Assembly: GCF_013745115.1 (NCBI RefSeq)
Contig: NZ_CP051151.1
Coordinates: forward strand, 806,001 to 870,000
Length of the DNA: 64,000 bases
DNA from: Hujiaoplasma nucleasis
GTDB taxonomy: Bacteria; Bacillota_I; Bacilli_A; Izemoplasmatales; Hujiaoplasmataceae
Direction of reading: 5' to 3'
Shown here: in pieces, positions 16,330 to 26,674 of the stretch
How positions within the stretch are numbered: position 1 is the stretch's first letter
How the letters are laid out: each line of letters begins with the position of its first letter
Program-made: the position numbers and the translations under genes
The notes under the pieces: model-generated
Told to the model about the DNA's origin: nothing
The model's database searches: none
The model's input: the letters and a program-made list of their open reading frames with translations, nothing else

Positions 16330-16959
16330 TTATAAGTTTTTTGCAATGACATTTACAAGCGCAGCTTCAAGTCCCTTTATCGGAATAGGTAAAACCATTA
16401 ACTCAATATGAGAAGACAAGCGATCCAAATGAACTAAATTTTCGAGCAAATAAATATCATTGCTTAATAAATCTCTATGCATTTGTAACATATCACCTTC
16501 AACATATTCATAACTTGGTAAATCAGCTGCTAATAAACGAATATGATGCTTTTTTAAGAATTCTAAAATTGAAGGTTCAAATTTAGGATAGGTCCAATAA
16601 GCTTGAGTATTTATTTTATGTTCATGATTGGTTGAAATAATTAACATATCTTCTGCTTGATTGATATATTGATAAGCCAACTCTATATCTTTAGTTTTAA
16701 TGATCCCTGACTTAGCTTGGATAAAAATGACATTAGCTTTGCCTATAAACTGATTAAAATCAAGATGGTCTTCTTCATTTAAGACATGTGATTTATAATC
16801 CAAATGCGTACCCAAATGCATGGTTAAATATACTTGGGATAAAAGGTAATTATCTTTATCCCAAGTCTTAATTTTATTTATTTTTAGCCCTTCATCTCCA
16901 GGAAAAGCTAAGGTTGATTCATCAATTTCTAGAGATAAACTCAACCATTGTTCTTTCAT
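16330..16959 (-). CDS. Cyclase / kynurenine-formamidase-like metal hydrolase
   Basis: A 209-residue protein of the PF04199 family. The metal signature HxGTHxDxxxH is present as HLGTHLDYKSHV near residues 48-59, after the typical N-terminal WLSLSLEID and FPGD motif. Family members hydrolyse amides or esters such as N-formylkynurenine, but no kynurenine pathway is visible and the substrate is unknown. The start codon overlaps the glgP stop (ATGA), so it is the last gene of the glycogen operon; a link to glycogen is not established. Confidence 0.8.
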   Translation of the reverse strand: MKEQWLSLSLEIDESTLAFPGDEGLKINKIKTWDKDNYLLSQVYLTMHLGTHLDYKSHVLNEEDHLDFNQFIGKANVIFIQAKSGIIKTKDIELAYQYINQAEDMLIISTNHEHKINTQAYWTYPKFEPSILEFLKKHHIRLLAADLPSYEYVEGDMLQMHRDLLSNDIYLLENLVHLDRLSSHIELMVLPIPIKGLEAALVNVIAKNL

Positions 16960-19358
16960 GATAAAGAATCAATCTCCCAAATTTTTTGGCTATAATCTCT
17001 AATAGAACGATCTGAAGAAAACTCTCCTGATTTTCCAATATTGATTAATGCCATTTTAGCCCAATGACTTTGGTCTTTATAAGCTTCATTTACAAGTTCA
17101 GATGCTTTTAAGTAAGCATGGAAATCTTTAAGGACATAATAAGGATCTCTATTGACTAGATTTTCAAATATTTCTCTAAATTCTTCTCTATCAACTTGAT
17201 CAAAGAAACCATTAACCAATTGTTTTAGAAGTAAATTAATAGTCGAATCTGTTTCATATAAGGTTCTAGGATTGTATTTATGACTAGCATTTAAGGTGTT
17301 TACTTCATTTGCGTCTAATCCAAAAATATAGATATTATCATCACCAACAAGTTCTTTTATCTCAACATTGGCCCCATCTAAGGTTCCTAAAGTTAAGGCA
17401 CCATTCATCATAAATTTCATATTACCTGTCCCACTTGCCTCTTTTGAAGCTGTTGAAATTTGTTCAGACACATCACAAGCAGGCATAATCATTTCAGCAT
17501 AAGATACATTATAATTTTCTACAAATATTACTTTCAAATATGAATTGGTCTCAGGATCATTATTTACTTTAGTAGCTATCGTGTTAATTAATTTTATAAT
17601 CTTCTTAGCAAAGTGATAAGAACCTGCAGCTTTAGCACCGAAAATATAAGTGTGAGGTACATAATTTTCCCTATATTCTTTTGAAGTTTTCAACTGATGG
17701 TAAACATACATAATATGAATTGCATTCATTAGCTGGCGTTTATACTCATGTAGACGCTTCACTTGAATATCAAAAATAGAATTAGAATCAATTTCAATGC
17801 CTTGTTCTTCATAGATACGTTTAGCCAAAGCATCTTTTTTAATTTTTTTAATTTTCAAAAATTCTTTTTGAGTATTTTTATCATCAACAAATTCTAATAA
17901 CTTTTCTAAGTCTTTAGGATTTTTTTGATATTCTTGGCCAATCTTCTTATTTAAAAATTCACTTAATTCAGGATTTGAATGTAATAACCATCTACGATGA
18001 GTAATACCATTGGTGATATTAACAAATTTATTAGGATATAAATCATTAAAATCCTTCATCTCTATATTCTTCAATATATCTGTGTGTAGTTTAGCAACAC
18101 CATTGACGGAGAATGAAGAAATAATACATAAATGCGCCATTCTAACTTCATTATGATTAATGATTCTTAAATCATTAATTTTATCAATTGATTCTCCATC
18201 TTGATTCATTTTCTCAACAAAACGACGGTCTATTTCTTCGATTAATTGATAGACTCTTGGTAATAAAGGTTGAATAATATTTACAGACCAACGTTCTAAA
18301 GCTTCAGCTAAAATCGTATGATTCGTATAAGCAAAAGTATGGTTCGTAATGTCCCACGCCTTATCCCAAGACATATGTTCTTCATCTAATAATATTCTCA
18401 TCATTTCAGGAATTAATAAAGCTGGATGTGTATCATTAATATGAATCACATTCTTTTCAGCAAAATTATCCATAGTATTATATTTAGCTTTATGTTTTTT
18501 TATAATGCTTTTTAAACCGGCAGCTGATAAGAAATATTGTTGCTTAAGTCTTAAAGTTTTCCCTTCATGGGTAGAATCATCAGGATATAAGAAACCAGAA
18601 ATTTGTTCTAATTCACTTTCATATTCAAAAGGTGACTTATATTCAGGATAACGTTTATCTGGTTCTGCAGACCAAATTCTTAATTGATTAACAAAACCAT
18701 TATCATCTCCAATGATTGGAATATCATAAGGCACTGCACGAATGAATTCTCCCGGTTTATAAACCATATCTCCATTATGATATTCTACATGGCCATAGAA
18801 AGGAATAGATTCTGATTCTTCGGTTTTTCTAACTTCCCATACATAGCCATCATTTAACCAGTTGTCTGGTCTTTCTTCTTGATAACCATTTTTTATACGT
18901 TGTCTAAATAACCCATAACGATAACGGATACAGTTACCTGAACCAGGTATTTTTAAAGAAGCCATTGAGTCTAAGAAACAAGCTGCTAAACGACCTAGTC
19001 CACCATTTCCTAGACCTGGATCAGATTCATAATCTTCGACCTCATTTAAATCAAAACCTAATGATTTAAAACCTGCCTCAGCTACATCTCTAATTCCTAA
19101 ATTAATTAAGTTATTGGTAATTAAACGGCCCAATAAGAATTCCATTGAAAAATAATGAATTTGTTTGGCATCTTCTTTTTCTATTTTTTCATGAGTATCT
19201 ATCCATTGGTCAGCCATTTCTTCTTTAACCAACATACCTAGAACATGATATCTTTCTCTTATGGTTGAATCTTTAACATCTTTGAAATAAGTTTTTCTTA
19301 AACGATCTTTAAATACTTTTTCAAATTTATTACTTGTTGAAAATATTTCCTTTTTCAT
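16956..19358 (-). CDS. glgP: Glycogen phosphorylase
   Basis: Releases glucose-1-phosphate from glycogen ends by phosphorolysis. Its 800 residues match family length. The PLP signature EASGTGNMKFMMNGALTLG, containing the Schiff-base lysine, is intact near residues 638-656, as are YRYGLFRQRIKNGYQ, HINDTHPAL and NITNGITHRRW. The N-terminal allosteric phosphoserine region of animal enzymes is absent, as in other bacteria. ATG follows AGAGGAGA, 16 bases after the glgD/A fusion. Degradation and synthesis genes are in one operon, so control must lie at enzyme level. Confidence 0.97.
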   Translation of the reverse strand: MKKEIFSTSNKFEKVFKDRLRKTYFKDVKDSTIRERYHVLGMLVKEEMADQWIDTHEKIEKEDAKQIHYFSMEFLLGRLITNNLINLGIRDVAEAGFKSLGFDLNEVEDYESDPGLGNGGLGRLAACFLDSMASLKIPGSGNCIRYRYGLFRQRIKNGYQEERPDNWLNDGYVWEVRKTEESESIPFYGHVEYHNGDMVYKPGEFIRAVPYDIPIIGDDNGFVNQLRIWSAEPDKRYPEYKSPFEYESELEQISGFLYPDDSTHEGKTLRLKQQYFLSAAGLKSIIKKHKAKYNTMDNFAEKNVIHINDTHPALLIPEMMRILLDEEHMSWDKAWDITNHTFAYTNHTILAEALERWSVNIIQPLLPRVYQLIEEIDRRFVEKMNQDGESIDKINDLRIINHNEVRMAHLCIISSFSVNGVAKLHTDILKNIEMKDFNDLYPNKFVNITNGITHRRWLLHSNPELSEFLNKKIGQEYQKNPKDLEKLLEFVDDKNTQKEFLKIKKIKKDALAKRIYEEQGIEIDSNSIFDIQVKRLHEYKRQLMNAIHIMYVYHQLKTSKEYRENYVPHTYIFGAKAAGSYHFAKKIIKLINTIATKVNNDPETNSYLKVIFVENYNVSYAEMIMPACDVSEQISTASKEASGTGNMKFMMNGALTLGTLDGANVEIKELVGDDNIYIFGLDANEVNTLNASHKYNPRTLYETDSTINLLLKQLVNGFFDQVDREEFREIFENLVNRDPYYVLKDFHAYLKASELVNEAYKDQSHWAKMALINIGKSGEFSSDRSIRDYSQKIWEIDSLS

Positions 19359-19374
19359 AATAATCTCTCCTCTT

Positions 19375-21792
19375 TTAAACCATCATCTCATATAACTCTA
19401 TATATTTGATGGCTGAATCTTTTATAGTAAAACGGGAATTCATGGCATTAATGATTAACTGATGCCAATCATTAGGATGGTTTTTATAGATTGAATAAGC
19501 AAATTCTAATTGAAAGACCAAATCTCTTACATCAAAATTATAAAACTTAAAGCCATTACCACGTTTACTTGATAAATCATAATGGTCTACAGTATCATTT
19601 AAACCACCAGTTTGTCTCACCAATGGAATGGTACCGTATTTTAAAGCAATCATTTGCCCCAAACCACAAGGTTCTACCCTAGAAGGCATTAAAAATAAAT
19701 CAGCCCCAGCATAGATATAATTAGGATTGGTCGCATCATAAGTCAAGTTGACACTAACCTGATTAGGGAACTGCTTTTCTAAATTTCTTAGATTATCTAA
19801 ATACTTTTCTTGTCCAGTTCCTAATATCACAAATTGAATTTGAGGATTTTTAAGAATTTCATATAAGGCTGGTAATATGATATCAAATCCTTTTTGTTCA
19901 ACAATCCTTGTGACCATACCAATAATAAAGAAATCTTTAGAAAGAGTCAAGCCTAATTTTTTCTGTAGGTCTTCTTTATTTCTTGGTTTTGCGGAAAAAA
20001 CATTGACCAAATCATATTTTTGATAAATATCCAAATCATTTTTTGGACCAACATTTTCACTGACACCATTTAAAATACCATAAAAATCCCTTGCTCGTCT
20101 TTGAATAGCATCCACAAGATTTTTAGAATAATATTCATAAGCTAACTCATCTTTATAGGTTTCAGATACAGTTGATACTTTATCGGCTAGATGAATACCT
20201 GTTTCTAGAAAATTTAAAGCATTGGGTCTAAAAAAATTATATGCTGTTTTTACTTTTAATTTACTTAAAACCCTTTGAGTGAATTTCCCTTGATATTCGA
20301 TATTATGAATAGTTAATAAAGTCTTTATCTTCATTCCATATTCTTTTAATAGCATAGGAATTAAGGCGCTATGCCAATCATGAACATGAATGACGTTAGG
20401 AAATGACTCTAAATACTCTAAAAAGTCAATAACAGCTAGACTGAAGAAAGCAAATCTTTCATCATCATCTGGATAACCATAAATTTTATCCCTATCAAAA
20501 AATTGATAAGTCTCAATAAAATAATATACGGTATTTTCATTGTTTAAAGCATATAAAGAAGCCTTATACTGATCATCACCAAAGTCAATGGTTTTATCCC
20601 CAACATGTTTAAGTAATAATTCATAATTTTCAAAAATTTTAGGATACATTGGCATAATCACTAATGATTTTTTTCCTAGACTAGAGTAGGCTTCAGCATT
20701 AGCACCCACAACATCAGCCAAACCTCCTGTTTTCATAAAGGGTTGAACTTCAGCTGAGACCTGTAAAATGGTCAATCCTTTTTCAGTTGTGACGATTTGT
20801 TTTTTTTCAGATACAAATAACTGGTCTATGGTACCTAGGACTTTTGCGTGATCAATAACCTTTGTTTCTTTATCCAAAATTGAATATTGCACTTGGGCAT
20901 TTTCGCCTATATCAGCATGGTTCATTAAAACCGAATGATAGACTTTGGCATTTTTCCTAACATGAACTTTTCGTCCAATGACTGAATGGTATACTTCTCC
21001 TTCAATTACAGCTCCTGAAGCAATTATAGAATTCTTCACAACAGCTGATTCACCATACCTTGTTGGAGCGGACATGGTTTCTTTAGAATAAATAGGCCAA
21101 TCTTTAATAAAGATTTCTTGTCGAACCTGTTCATTCATTAACTGCATATTAGCATTAAACAAACCCCTTGATGATTCGATTAGAAATGAAGATTGTTCTA
21201 TGCGATGAGCTGCCTTTTTTAAACTAGAAGAAAAATCAAAAACATCTGATAAATTCCTATATTGAATTTGATCATACTTAGAAATATAATCAATCAATAA
21301 TTCTTTATTGATTATATAAATCTTTAAACGCTCATAATCACTCCCAACAAAAGTAGACAGGTCTAAATCAGCATCAATATGCTTATCTAATAGAGACATA
21401 TAATCGATATTGATGACTACGTTGGCTGGTGTAATCAAGGCATACTCTTGACTTGAACGTTTAAAATATTCTATGTGTTCATACATTCTTTGAAAAGAAA
21501 TTTCATGGTCAATGGTATTGGTTAATACTTTGGGAGGTAAAATAAAAATACCATCCTTCCGACGGTTTAAATCCCAACGGTTACCAGAACCAATTTGGTC
21601 AGATAAAGAACGATAATTACCATAAGGAAAAATAGCGACATTATATATTTTTGAATTTTTACAATTAGACAAAGTAAAATCAATCAAACGATACTTAGCC
21701 CCAAAAGGCATAGCCCCTGGAACACGATGTCTGGTTAAGTGAGAGAAACTGCCTTGATTTGTTGCATCAACGACCACAAATAAATTATTCAC
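19375..21792 (-). CDS. glgA: GlgD-GlgA fusion: inactive ADP-glucose pyrophosphorylase-like domain joined to glycogen synthase
   Basis: One continuous 805-residue frame. Residues 1 to about 333 are GlgD-like: PGAMPFGAKYRLIDFTLSN matches nucleotidyltransferases, but the catalytic GGxGTRL loop is replaced by VVVDATNQGSF, as in regulatory GlgD; a left-handed beta-helix follows (about 255-330). From about 338 the GT5 glycogen synthase begins (LTILQVSAEVQPFMKTGGLADVVG, the ADP-glucose-binding KxGGL loop) and ends with the EPCGLGQMIALKYGTIPLVR block. In Bacillus the two are separate genes. GTG 21792 is chosen because AGGTGA precedes it; GTG 21801 would add three residues. It overlaps glgC by 8 bases. 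Confidence 0.93.
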   Translation of the reverse strand: MNNLFVVVDATNQGSFSHLTRHRVPGAMPFGAKYRLIDFTLSNCKNSKIYNVAIFPYGNYRSLSDQIGSGNRWDLNRRKDGIFILPPKVLTNTIDHEISFQRMYEHIEYFKRSSQEYALITPANVVINIDYMSLLDKHIDADLDLSTFVGSDYERLKIYIINKELLIDYISKYDQIQYRNLSDVFDFSSSLKKAAHRIEQSSFLIESSRGLFNANMQLMNEQVRQEIFIKDWPIYSKETMSAPTRYGESAVVKNSIIASGAVIEGEVYHSVIGRKVHVRKNAKVYHSVLMNHADIGENAQVQYSILDKETKVIDHAKVLGTIDQLFVSEKKQIVTTEKGLTILQVSAEVQPFMKTGGLADVVGANAEAYSSLGKKSLVIMPMYPKIFENYELLLKHVGDKTIDFGDDQYKASLYALNNENTVYYFIETYQFFDRDKIYGYPDDDERFAFFSLAVIDFLEYLESFPNVIHVHDWHSALIPMLLKEYGMKIKTLLTIHNIEYQGKFTQRVLSKLKVKTAYNFFRPNALNFLETGIHLADKVSTVSETYKDELAYEYYSKNLVDAIQRRARDFYGILNGVSENVGPKNDLDIYQKYDLVNVFSAKPRNKEDLQKKLGLTLSKDFFIIGMVTRIVEQKGFDIILPALYEILKNPQIQFVILGTGQEKYLDNLRNLEKQFPNQVSVNLTYDATNPNYIYAGADLFLMPSRVEPCGLGQMIALKYGTIPLVRQTGGLNDTVDHYDLSSKRGNGFKFYNFDVRDLVFQLEFAYSIYKNHPNDWHQLIINAMNSRFTIKDSAIKYIELYEMMV

Positions 21793-22912
21793 GAATCTCA
21801 CCTACTTTAAAAAGGTTATCTTCTGTAATTAAAATACAATGTTCATTTATTGAATGATAATGATCGGGAATTTTTACTCCTTCATTGATAATTGCCTTCT
21901 CTATATGAGCCTTATAGCCTATTTCAACACCAGACAAGATAACACAATCTTTAACCAATGAGTTTTTCTTCATATGAACCTGATAAGCAAGGGTTGAGTG
22001 AATAACATGCCCATTGATCAAACATGCATCAGCGATCACTGATGATTGAACCAAACCATCATTTAAAACTATATGAGGATCTAAATTCAATGATCTTGAA
22101 AAAATCGGTAAGTTTTTTGAAGAATTTAAACCTAAAAAATGTTCATCATTTAACATATCCATATTGGCTTCATAAAGGGACTCTAAAGTTCCAACATCCC
22201 GCCAATAACCCTTAAATTCATAAGATAATATCTTATAATTTTGATGAATAGCTTCTGGGATAATATCACTGCCAAAGTCTAATAAATCTTTTTCAGAAAA
22301 CAACAGAGATTTTAAGACCTCTGTTTTAAAAATATATATACCCATTGAAACTAAATTTGATGATGGATGATTAGGTTTTTCAGTAAAGGATAATAAATGG
22401 CCGCTTGGATCAGTTTCAACAATACCAAAGCGATATAAATCTGATTGATTAAGTCTTGTGGAAGCCACAAGAATATCACTTTGGTCTTCATCAATGGCTT
22501 GAATCATTTTGTTATAGTCCATTTTGTATATATGATCTCCTGGCAATATTAAAACATATTGACTTTGATAGTGGTCAATAAAATCAAAAAACTGTTTGAC
22601 TGCATGACCAGTTCCCTTTTGCCATTCAATGGCATCTTTCTTTAAATAAGGGGTTAAGAACCTTATTCCCCCATCAGTGTAGTCTAAATCCCAAGAAGAA
22701 CCATTACCAATATAATTCATTAAATCCATGGGTTCGTATTGGGTCACTAAGCCACAAACATCAATATGAGAATGGCTTAGATTGCTTAATGTAAAATCTA
22801 TTAAGCGATATTTTCCACCAAAAGAAATGGCTGGTTTAGCCTTTCCTTTGGTCATATCCCCTAATCTTGTGCCCTTGCCTCCAACCAAAATCATTGAGAT
22901 GATTTTTTTCAT
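21785..22912 (-). CDS. glgC: Glucose-1-phosphate adenylyltransferase (ADP-glucose pyrophosphorylase)
   Basis: Makes ADP-glucose, the committed step of glycogen synthesis. The catalytic loop MILVGGKGTRLGDMTKGKAKP is complete, unlike in the GlgD part of the next gene; PGDHIYKMDY (metal Asp) and SFTEKP also fit. A C-terminal beta-helix domain carries hexapeptide repeats. Its 375 residues are typical. In Bacillus the active enzyme is a GlgC-GlgD heterotetramer; here the GlgD partner is tethered to the synthase. ATG follows AAGGTGG, 9 bases after glgB. Confidence 0.97.
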   Translation of the reverse strand: MKKIISMILVGGKGTRLGDMTKGKAKPAISFGGKYRLIDFTLSNLSHSHIDVCGLVTQYEPMDLMNYIGNGSSWDLDYTDGGIRFLTPYLKKDAIEWQKGTGHAVKQFFDFIDHYQSQYVLILPGDHIYKMDYNKMIQAIDEDQSDILVASTRLNQSDLYRFGIVETDPSGHLLSFTEKPNHPSSNLVSMGIYIFKTEVLKSLLFSEKDLLDFGSDIIPEAIHQNYKILSYEFKGYWRDVGTLESLYEANMDMLNDEHFLGLNSSKNLPIFSRSLNLDPHIVLNDGLVQSSVIADACLINGHVIHSTLAYQVHMKKNSLVKDCVILSGVEIGYKAHIEKAIINEGVKIPDHYHSINEHCILITEDNLFKVGEIRE

Positions 22913-22921
22913 GGAACCACC

Positions 22922-24778
22922 TTACTTTCTAAGTTTAAAGACTTGAATTGCGAGTGGTGCGATTACTATTTGAATAGACTGTTCAAACCCATGATGAGCA
23001 AAATCTTGACTGACAGGATCTAAGCCATTGTAGGTATTTGAACCTTCATATTTATCTAAATCTGAATTAATAATTTCTTGATATACACCTTTTTTTGGTA
23101 TGCCAATACGATAGTCATGATATACCATAGGTGTCATATTTAATACAACCAAACAAAAATCACCCTTTGAATCATACCTTAAGAAAGAAAAGATACTTTG
23201 TTCTGCATTGTTAGAATCAACCCATTTAAAGCCGTTGGATTGATAATCAAGTTCATAAAAACAAGGATTCTCATGGTAGACTTTAACCATGTCTTTAAAA
23301 AACAAATTGGCCTTTTGATGCATAGGATATTGGAATAAATGCCAATCTAACTGACTCGTATCCCTCCACTCATGCATATGTCCAAACTCTTCACCCATAA
23401 ACATAAGTTTTTTTCCTGGATGAGTGACTTGTAAACCAACCAATAAACGATAGTTAGCAAATTTTTGCCAATAATCTCCTGGCATTTTTTCTACTAATGA
23501 ATGTTTACCATGGACCACTTCATCATGTGACAAGGCCAAAACAAACCTTTCAGAATGATGATATACCATAGCGAAATTTATATAATGGTGATGGTATTTT
23601 CTATAGATAGGGTCTTTTTCAAAATACTTCAAGGTATCATTCATCCAACCCATATTCCACTTATAATCAAAGCCAACGCCTCCATCATGAACAGGAGCGG
23701 TTAATTTTGGGAAAGTTGATGAATCTTCAGCAAACAATAAAACAGAAGAATCATAGGCTTTTACAGTATTTGATAACGTTTTTAAGAAGTCTAAAGCGCC
23801 CATATTGGTTCCTCTAGATGGGTCTCCTAAATAATGAAGAATGTTTGAAACAGCATCAATTCTAAATCCATCAATATGGAAGTAATCCATCCAAAAACGA
23901 GCATTAGATAGTAGAAAAGAACGAGTTGTTCCCTTGCCCAAGTCAAGATTTATAGTCCCCCATACTTCATTTTCCCTGATTGAATCATCAGAATATTCAT
24001 AAAGATAAGACCCATCAAATTTATATAAACCATGAGCATCTTTAGAAATATGTGATGGAACCCAATCCAATATCACACCAATCCCAGCTTGGTGTAAACG
24101 GTCTATCAAATAGAAAAGATCCTTGGGCACACCAAATCTAGAGGTAGCTGAATAATATCCTGTAGCTTGGTAACCCCATGATTCATCTAAAGGATGTTCA
24201 GCCAGAGGCATCATTTCAACATGAGTAAAACCATGATCTAATAGGTAGGGAATTAATAAGTCTACCAAGTCATTATATTTATTAAAAGTAAAATCTGGTT
24301 TTCTCATCCATGAACCTAAATGCATTTCATAAATGACCATAGGTTCTTTGAAAGAATTTCTTTTCTTGCGGTTTTTCATATACTTGGAATCATTCCAAGT
24401 ATAACCTTCAATATCATAGACTTTAGAAGATGTTTCTGGCCTAAAATCAGAGAAAAAAGCATAAGGATCTGACTTAAAAATAGTTTCATTTTGATAAGTC
24501 ACAAAGCAATACTTATATTTCTCCCATTCAGATAAACCTTCAATATAAAGTGAAAACACACCCGCATCATCGATTTTATTCATGATGTGTGTACGAGAAT
24601 CCCATGAATTGAAATCACCAACAATAGAGGCAATTCTAGCATTTGGTGCATATACCGTAAACTCAACACCTAAAATCTTTTGGTTTTTATCCTTGACTAT
24701 ATGGGCACCAAAATGTTTGTACGCTTGAAGTAATTGTCCATTGTCAAATAAATACATGATTTCACTATTCATATTCAT
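22922..24778 (-). CDS. glgB: 1,4-alpha-glucan branching enzyme (GH13/CBM48)
   Basis: Introduces alpha-1,6 branches into glycogen. The 618 residues carry an N-terminal CBM48 domain (VYAPNARIASIVGDFNSW) and the GH13 barrel with region I DWVPSH, region II DGFRIDAVSNI (nucleophile), region III AEDSS (acid) and region IV LALSHDEVVHGKHS, the branching-enzyme hallmark. The start overlaps recX by 14 bases; GGAGAAG lies upstream. First glg gene in the operon. Confidence 0.97.
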   Translation of the reverse strand: MNMNSEIMYLFDNGQLLQAYKHFGAHIVKDKNQKILGVEFTVYAPNARIASIVGDFNSWDSRTHIMNKIDDAGVFSLYIEGLSEWEKYKYCFVTYQNETIFKSDPYAFFSDFRPETSSKVYDIEGYTWNDSKYMKNRKKRNSFKEPMVIYEMHLGSWMRKPDFTFNKYNDLVDLLIPYLLDHGFTHVEMMPLAEHPLDESWGYQATGYYSATSRFGVPKDLFYLIDRLHQAGIGVILDWVPSHISKDAHGLYKFDGSYLYEYSDDSIRENEVWGTINLDLGKGTTRSFLLSNARFWMDYFHIDGFRIDAVSNILHYLGDPSRGTNMGALDFLKTLSNTVKAYDSSVLLFAEDSSTFPKLTAPVHDGGVGFDYKWNMGWMNDTLKYFEKDPIYRKYHHHYINFAMVYHHSERFVLALSHDEVVHGKHSLVEKMPGDYWQKFANYRLLVGLQVTHPGKKLMFMGEEFGHMHEWRDTSQLDWHLFQYPMHQKANLFFKDMVKVYHENPCFYELDYQSNGFKWVDSNNAEQSIFSFLRYDSKGDFCLVVLNMTPMVYHDYRIGIPKKGVYQEIINSDLDKYEGSNTYNGLDPVSQDFAHHGFEQSIQIVIAPLAIQVFKLRK

Positions 24779-25580
24779 TTGCTTCTTCTCCTTTTAATAT
24801 CTGAATTATTTTATGGTAACTATAACCTTTTTGCATTAACTTTGGAAGGATAAAATCCCTAAAAGATTGACTTTGATTACTTTTCTTATACTTTCTTAAA
24901 TAATTATCATAATCTTTTTCTAAGGCCACATCTTCATCGATTTCATCTTCGATATGACTTGACATTCTTTCAACTATTTCTTGAATCAAATCATAATCAT
25001 AACCCTTATTTACAAGGTATGCTTTTAAAGATTCTTTAATCTTATATATGGGCTTATTTTTTGATGATTTCACTCTCTTTTCAACTAAAGTTTGAATATT
25101 CTCAGTCATTAATTGCTTAGAATATTGATGAAGATGTCTATCAATCATTGACTGAGAAATTCCTTTTTGTAGTAAATCAAAAGTAATTTTATTGGGTCCA
25201 ATCATCCGAAAATGACTATACTCATCAATGTATTGTTTGGTATATAAGTCATCATCAATAATCTTAGCTGTTTTTAATTTATCAATGTACTTTGCTTTAG
25301 CCTTTTCAGGAATTGAAAACTGGTCTAAATACTTACTGGCTTCTAATTCTGTACGAGCTTTAAATGTCGCATAGTGCAATAACTTTTGACGATAATTATC
25401 ATGTTTTATTGCTTCTTTTAAGTCTAAAAAGTCTTTTTTTTCAAGGACTTTACCTTTAACTAAACGAAATTCTAAGATGATTTCGTCAGAAACCTCAAAT
25501 TCAATACTTTTTTCTTGGTGTTTCAAGGATAAAATATATTTGTTTTTATTTTTTTCTATTTGATTTACTTGATAGATCAT
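24765..25580 (-). CDS. recX: Regulatory protein RecX
   Basis: RecX inhibits RecA filaments and strand exchange. The 271 residues contain three-helix repeats typical of the family, e.g. LLHYATFKARTELEASKYLD, then IDDDLYTKQYIDEYSH and PNKITFDLLQKGISQSMIDR, with a basic N-terminal extension as in Gram-positive RecX (Bacillus about 264). It is linked by ATGA overlap to prfB and by a 14-base overlap to glgB, so a recombination regulator is embedded between translation and glycogen genes. Confidence 0.88.
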   Translation of the reverse strand: MIYQVNQIEKNKNKYILSLKHQEKSIEFEVSDEIILEFRLVKGKVLEKKDFLDLKEAIKHDNYRQKLLHYATFKARTELEASKYLDQFSIPEKAKAKYIDKLKTAKIIDDDLYTKQYIDEYSHFRMIGPNKITFDLLQKGISQSMIDRHLHQYSKQLMTENIQTLVEKRVKSSKNKPIYKIKESLKAYLVNKGYDYDLIQEIVERMSSHIEDEIDEDVALEKDYDNYLRKYKKSNQSQSFRDFILPKLMQKGYSYHKIIQILKGEEANEYE

Positions 25581-26674
25581 TTCTTCAACATAGTTAAATA
25601 CGCAAAGATAAACCCATCCAAGTCTCCATCCATAACCTTGTCACCATTTCCGGTTTCAAAATTGGTGCGATGGTCTTTAACCATTGTATACGGATGAAAA
25701 ACATAAGAACGAATTTGTGACCCAAAGGCATTTAACTTCCCATCATGAAATTTGGCCAATGCTTCTTGTTGCTTCTCTAATTCTAAATTATATAACTTAC
25801 CTTTTAAAACCTTCATTGCTGTTTCACGATTTTGAATTTGTGACCGTTCATTTTGACACGTCACAACAATATTAGTAGGTAAGTGGGTAATTCTAATGGC
25901 AGAATCAGTCGTATTAACCCCTTGACCACCCTTACCACTTGAACGATAGGTGTCTACCCTAATTTCAGTTTCATCAATTTCTATATCAATAGAATCATCA
26001 ATTTCTGGATATACTTTAACTGAAGCAAATGAAGTGTGTCTTCTTCCTGATGAATCAAAAGGAGAAATTCTCACCAAACGGTGAACACCAGATTCAGCTT
26101 TTAAATAACCATAGGCATACTTGCCACTCACTAAAACGGTTGCTGATTTTAAACCAGCTTCTTCACCATCTAAATAATCTAAAATCTTAAATTGGTATTG
26201 GTGTTGATCACAATATTTTTTATACATCCTAAACAACATTTCAGCCCAATCTTGGGATTCAGTTCCTCCTGCTCCTGGATGAAACTCAATGATGGCGTTA
26301 AACTTATCATAGTCTTCATTTAATAATAATCTTAAGGTGAAAGCTTGATTTAATTGCTCAAATTCTTTAATGAGTTTTTCAATCTCATTTAAGTCTACAT
26401 GTTCGTCTTCATTCAATAACTCGATACTTAAATCAATGGTTTCATAAATATCTTTTAATCTTTGATAATCATCAATTTTGCTTTTTAACTCATTAACTTC
26501 TCCGATGATGGTCTGTGCTTTGTCATTATCAAGCCAAAAATCTGGAGAAATCGTTAAATTTTCCAGATCTTTTAAATGTTCTTTAGTTTCTATGATGTCT
26601 ATGCTTTGATCAATCTTCTCAATATCTTCAGAAAACTGATTCGAATATTTTTTTAACTCATCTAAAGTAATCAT
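25577..26674 (-). CDS. prfB: Peptide chain release factor 2
   Basis: Terminates translation at UGA and UAA. The 365 residues include the GGQ motif (SSGKGGQGVN) for peptidyl-tRNA hydrolysis. The N-terminal helical domain is read in one frame: the site where most bacterial prfB genes carry the CUU-UGA +1 frameshift is replaced by AUA-GAC (in QSIDII, about residues 23-28). Autoregulation by frameshift is thus lost. Presence of RF2 supports UGA as stop. It overlaps the secA stop by one base (TAATG). Order hpf-secA-prfB is as in Bacillus. Confidence 0.96.
   Translation of the reverse strand: MITLDELKKYSNQFSEDIEKIDQSIDIIETKEHLKDLENLTISPDFWLDNDKAQTIIGEVNELKSKIDDYQRLKDIYETIDLSIELLNEDEHVDLNEIEKLIKEFEQLNQAFTLRLLLNEDYDKFNAIIEFHPGAGGTESQDWAEMLFRMYKKYCDQHQYQFKILDYLDGEEAGLKSATVLVSGKYAYGYLKAESGVHRLVRISPFDSSGRRHTSFASVKVYPEIDDSIDIEIDETEIRVDTYRSSGKGGQGVNTTDSAIRITHLPTNIVVTCQNERSQIQNRETAMKVLKGKLYNLELEKQQEALAKFHDGKLNAFGSQIRSYVFHPYTMVKDHRTNFETGNGDKVMDGDLDGFIFAYLTMLKK

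Follow-up and report, generated by a model that had tools for sequence, protein, structure and literature searches.

A conserved GlgD-GlgA fusion protein in the glycogen operon of Hujiaoplasma nucleasis and its relatives

The window analyzed here (the whole stretch of 64,000 nucleotides from Hujiaoplasma nucleasis) contains, on one strand, a glycogen operon in the order glgB-glgC-(glgD::glgA)-glgP, that is, the glgBCDAP order with glgD and glgA merged into a single gene. The genes, and the parts of the fusion gene that are relevant below, are as follows.

22922..24778, minus strand: glgB, branching enzyme, 618 aa (Pfam/NCBIfam)
21785..22912, minus strand: glgC, catalytic ADP-glucose pyrophosphorylase, 375 aa, overlapping the fusion gene by 8 nt
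19375..21792, minus strand: glgD::glgA fusion gene, 805 aa; GTG start at 21792, stop codon at 19375-19377
20791..21792, minus strand: GlgD half (aa 1-334), dead nucleotidyltransferase domain plus left-handed beta-helix (TIGR02092, AGPase fold)
21448..21642, minus strand: conserved patch of the GlgD half (aa 51-115), with 18 of the 20 residues that fusions conserve and separate GlgD does not
21340..21345, minus strand: deletion site at about aa 150/151, with ~37 residues gone, including the sugar-phosphate loop segment (alignment with GlgC; two-part TIGR02092 match)
20776..20790, minus strand: linker (aa 335-339, TTEKG)
19378..20775, minus strand: GlgA half (aa 340-805), complete GT5 glycogen synthase
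16956..19358, minus strand: glgP, alpha-glucan phosphorylase, 800 aa (Pfam/NCBIfam)

Elsewhere in the window (25577-26674), a release-factor-2-like gene of 365 aa was found to be a single unbroken frame and therefore apparently lacks the programmed frameshift that is common to this gene in many bacteria.

Read from 21792 to 19375 on the minus strand, the fusion gene is a single uninterrupted frame of 805 codons. Its GTG start sits within the overlap with the glgC stop codon (GTGAATAA) and is preceded, at a distance of five bases, by AGGTGA. A protein of 808 aa would result from an in-frame GTG at 21801, a possible but less likely start. The NCBIfam model TIGR02092 matched the first 333 residues at 245.8 bits (cut-off, 236.6; 285 to 313 bits in relatives), TIGR02095 matched aa 341 to 802 at 452.4 bits (cut-off, 328), and the Pfam domain calls agreed with both. 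Separate GlgD proteins terminate at the position matching residue ~334 of the fusion, and some 5 residues further on the first strand of GlgA begins. This junction, preceded in the order by a VSEKKQIV-like motif, was free of indels in all 38 aligned fusions (five families). Since no conserved Shine-Dalgarno sequence (ribosome-binding site) with a start codon was found at the junction, free GlgA is probably not produced from the fusion gene, and an internal translation start that would release it alongside the fusion was rejected.

The first-pass annotation of this DNA, made from its letters alone, had pointed out that a frameshift or missed stop codon might feign a fusion. This possibility was excluded by the order Izemoplasmatales, in which the fusion is full length, without internal stop, in about 66 of the 90 genomes searched. 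A further 11 of the 90 contain partial copies in which the frame is open across the junction, and all three families of the order are represented; in total, about 75 genomes of the order share the architecture. With the frame open in dozens of independent assemblies, we rejected an assembly error, frameshift, or missed stop. The same annotation had said that finding the fusion widely in described genomes would overturn its claim; by that test the fusion is not peculiar to one genome, extending as it does over the order and parts of two families. In the class sample, these two additional families are f10 (G129, G138, and G146) and f14 (G100, G111, G122, G133, G141, and G149). Every other glg operon read in the class has separate glgC, glgD, and glgA genes, as had been presumed, and the 850- to 870-aa "open frames" containing a stop in other families, considered as a second type of fusion, were rejected, as gene calling resolved them into separate glgD and glgA. 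A search of the phylum, the sample of which seemingly consisted of this class only, returned no additional fusion. Other phyla were covered solely by a close-relative scan of 84,980 species, and rarer or independent fusions may occur there; both halves were present at each of the 13 loci that the scan yielded, and several of these are named Candidatus Izimaplasma/Izemoplasma or Tenericutes/Bacillales metagenome-assembled genomes. Three nearly complete genomes of the order (G045, G057, and G063) do not carry the fusion; G045 and G057 retain a stand-alone GlgA, G063 gave no match, and the absence of the operon from all three looks like true loss. In summary, the fusion is genuine and ancient, and its conservation is strong across the whole order and two related families.

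The domain make-up and order originally proposed, with a catalytically dead GlgD half followed by a complete GT5 half, were borne out by NCBIfam and by alignment with GlgC. In the GlgA half, K354 and the GGL that follows it (K354-x-GGL), H469, R629, K634, and E707 were invariant in 30 of 30 aligned fusions, and in the partner GlgC the GGxGxRL loop, D126, and EKP at 178 to 180 were invariant in 13 of 13 aligned sequences; the roles of these residues we take to be those established for the E. coli enzymes. The GlgD half, aligned with GlgC, lacks the GGxGxRL nucleotide loop, the GDHIYKMDY-type Asp, and the FxEKP loop. Nucleotide loop and catalytic residues are absent from all GlgD proteins. While the description as a dead, GlgD-type half with a beta-helix thus stood, its completeness as a GlgD did not: with ~37 residues near aa 150 missing, it measures ~334 aa, short of the ~370 aa of a full-length GlgD domain. 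The missing segment, absent from all fusions, corresponds to FxEKP plus SxLASMGIYIF of the glucose-1-phosphate site in GlgC, and for this reason the GlgD part cannot form a normal substrate site. A second, separate GlgD was not found in the genome.

The catalytic partner is rarely out of sight. At 58 of 59 fused loci, glgC adjoins the fusion gene, the single exception being a locus cut by a contig end, and the start or stop of glgC mostly overlaps the fusion gene. The genome also contains a second, unfused glgA-glgC pair (L039:4987-7654, corresponding to G000:C1:450986-453653) encoding proteins of 473 and 411 aa. The catalytic motifs of its GlgC are intact, no glgB, glgD, or glgP adjoins it, and a stand-alone GlgA similar to that of the pair occurs in most genomes of the order. 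The pair implies that glycogen formation in this organism does not depend on coupling and that the fusion system is not the sole route.

As to its origin, the fusions formed one clade (SH-aLRT, 100) in a combined GlgC+GlgD+GlgA tree, and a single branch set them apart in every FastTree tree built from GlgC, GlgD, or GlgA singly. The next branch on the combined tree was genus g84 of family f14 (SH-aLRT, 92); GlgA by itself did not yield this placement. The GlgD of both g84 genomes is 341 aa long, carries the ~37-residue deletion seen in the fusions, and is encoded directly ahead of GlgA in one frame (...KEW[E/I] TAA ATG...), with nothing but TAA between the two genes (L078:5284-5403 and L079:5815-5934). 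This is a natural near-fusion state, and glgA can make use of an AAGGAG that lies in the last part of glgD. Since the deletion is shared, it preceded the fusion or came with it, and since only a TAA separates the two genes, a single base change could join them. In the operon tree, placing g84 together with the fused f14 members was rejected (AU test, P = 2e-67); in an rpoB tree, g84 joined these members. That f14 is one clade by rpoB and is split by the glg operon hints that the operon was transferred, either to g84 or from it. The simplest account is that the fused clade arose once; retention of the old state together with transfer, a re-splitting that long branches conceal, or more than one fusion event are also conceivable.

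The joining coincides with a marked shift in the constraint on GlgD. With separate genes, GlgD evolves faster than both GlgA and GlgC (subtree length ratios: D/A, 1.28; D/C, 1.94), whereas with fused genes it evolves more slowly than either (D/A, 0.78; D/C, 0.81). Among sister or near-sister pairs of fusions, divergence was lower for the GlgD half in 13 of 15 comparisons with the GlgA half (Wilcoxon P = 0.003) and in 13 of 14 comparisons with GlgC (P = 0.0004). Where computable, dN/dS was well below 1 in all parts, with dS near saturation. These rates led us to reject the notion that the GlgD half is a decaying remnant. It is the first ~120 residues, not the beta-helix, that show the added conservation. 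Out of 20 residues, which were chosen for the contrast between fused and separate GlgD, so that the g84 sequences are the only independent check, fusions keep 17 to 20, g84 keeps 7, and other separate GlgD proteins keep 0 to 4. By this check, with 7 retained in g84, the patch in which they concentrate arose with the fusion and not with the deletion. The natural reading is that this patch may be a new contact surface, either with GlgC or with the attached GlgA.

The patch and the rates bear directly on whether the fusion matters at all. It could be a neutral by-product, in which the stop codon between abutting genes was lost and the two halves act as separate proteins, coupled only by their shared chain. 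The g84 arrangement, one TAA and one base change away from such a state with its short GlgD and GlgA genes in the same frame, illustrates how easily this might happen, and neighbors in an operon are translationally coupled in any case. However, a neutral join does not lead one to expect that the GlgD half is more constrained than its partners in precisely the fused lineages, that a conserved patch was gained that the split sister g84 lacks, or that the junction kept a constant length over three or more families. We therefore consider this explanation unlikely.

An AlphaFold2 model of the fusion (30 sequences) had a mean pLDDT of 89, with the linker block near 70. At a pTM of 0.68, the predicted placement of the GlgD and GlgA halves relative to each other is uncertain. 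In Foldseek, the model paired with the E. coli glycogen synthase 2qzs, by way of the GlgA half, and also with the bacterial ADP-glucose pyrophosphorylases 5w5t and 5l6v.

Bacterial glycogen synthesis is committed and regulated at the formation of ADP-glucose, and it is an open question whether a physical tie between this step and the synthase ever occurs; here a tie exists that is covalent, runs via a dead subunit, and is found order-wide. Because the covalent join is conserved, the making and using of ADP-glucose are probably physically coupled in these bacteria. We propose that the fusion gene product is a working glycogen synthase, the N-terminal GlgD domain of which would serve as a docking or scaffold and regulatory subunit for the catalytic GlgC encoded by the neighboring gene. 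The likely particle would be a tetramer of the GlgC/GlgD type, each GlgD subunit bearing one GlgA via the short linker, such that ADP-glucose might be made and used within one complex. GlgD subunits are known to be inactive, to form tetramers with GlgC, and to raise or tune its activity and regulation (PMC9093745). It is this known assembly, together with the near-constant presence of glgC next to the fusion gene, that makes us read the fusion as a GlgC-anchored synthase. The first-pass annotation had made the pairing of GlgC with the GlgD part its premise; we regard it as the best-supported reading, resting on the intact GlgC at these loci, the short and length-invariant junction, and the published heterotetramers (PMC9093745); the GlgC-GlgD contact, its stoichiometry, and any effect on activity are inferred. 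For the docking and regulatory reading of the GlgD half in a GlgC-GlgD-type particle, we estimate a probability of roughly 0.7. Counting against it are the unfused glgA-glgC pair of this genome and the Geobacillus enzyme, in which GlgC is active without GlgD.

How much further one may go is another matter. Channeling of ADP-glucose in such a docked system, or the joint allosteric control that the first-pass annotation also raised, is no more than a possibility. The structure of mycobacterial TreS-Mak speaks against channeling in spite of a physical tie (PMC11046441), a caution against deriving a claim of channeling from physical joining alone. The strict version, in which GlgC tetramer and fused synthase would make up a fixed particle, held together by the surface at residues 50 to 115 of the dead subunit and passing on ADP-glucose without mixing into the cell pool, strikes us as distinctly unlikely.

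A different use of the GlgD half would be as a module for self-assembly or glycogen targeting, so that tetramers of the fusion cluster synthase domains while GlgC stays outside the complex. The beta-helix and catalytic-type domain of AGPases do drive the formation of tetramers, the GlgD half retains this fold, and the new patch in its N-terminal domain could be a self-contact. Nevertheless, a catalytic glgC lies beside the fusion at every locus with a visible neighbor and GlgD proteins are known to pair with GlgC (PMC9093745), which makes an assembly leaving GlgC out improbable in our view. That the GlgD half is instead an allosteric sensor, binding a metabolite in place of the lost substrate site and switching the attached GlgA, is very improbable: while GlgD has a regulatory role in certain Firmicutes enzymes (PMC9093745) and the patch overlaps a stretch whose GlgC counterpart lies close to the nucleotide and effector loops, the loss of the sugar-phosphate segment takes away a large part of the pocket, and no effector site was identified.

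With one stop codon between its genes, g84 forms a natural before-and-after pair with the fused lineages, making the effect of joining directly testable. For research on pseudoenzymes, a dead domain under tighter constraint than the catalytic partner offers a useful example. The first-pass annotation had called the fusion not known from well-studied glycogen systems, and no description of a GlgD-GlgA fusion was found in the open-licence literature, although it may have been noticed elsewhere. PMC3571937 contains glgA, glgD, and "gene fusion" without giving an account of such a protein, and GlgD goes unmentioned in the available portion of a 2024 review of prokaryotic glucan enzymes.

Among known systems, the separate GlgC/GlgD and GlgA proteins of Firmicutes (Geobacillus, Streptococcus, and Ruminococcus type; PMC9093745) share with the locus described here the order glgB-glgC-glgD-glgA-glgP, the protein families, and an inactive GlgD beside an active GlgC; they differ in that here GlgD and GlgA form one chain, a segment of ~37 residues is gone, and a fusion-specific patch is present. 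Adjacent steps of a glucan pathway are likewise found in one chain or complex in the TreS-Mak (TreS-Pep2) fusion and hetero-octamer of the GlgE pathway, the enzymes of which are unrelated to GlgD and GlgA (PMC11046441). The nearest published parallel, termed exceptional by its authors, comes from Waddliaceae and Criblamydiaceae (Chlamydiae), where glycogen synthase is likewise joined to a second product of the glycogen operon, in a GlgA-GlgB fusion (PMC7935935). There, however, the partner is an inactive branching enzyme at the other end of the synthase and glgC has been lost, whereas here the partner is an N-terminal, strongly conserved GlgD and glgC is retained.
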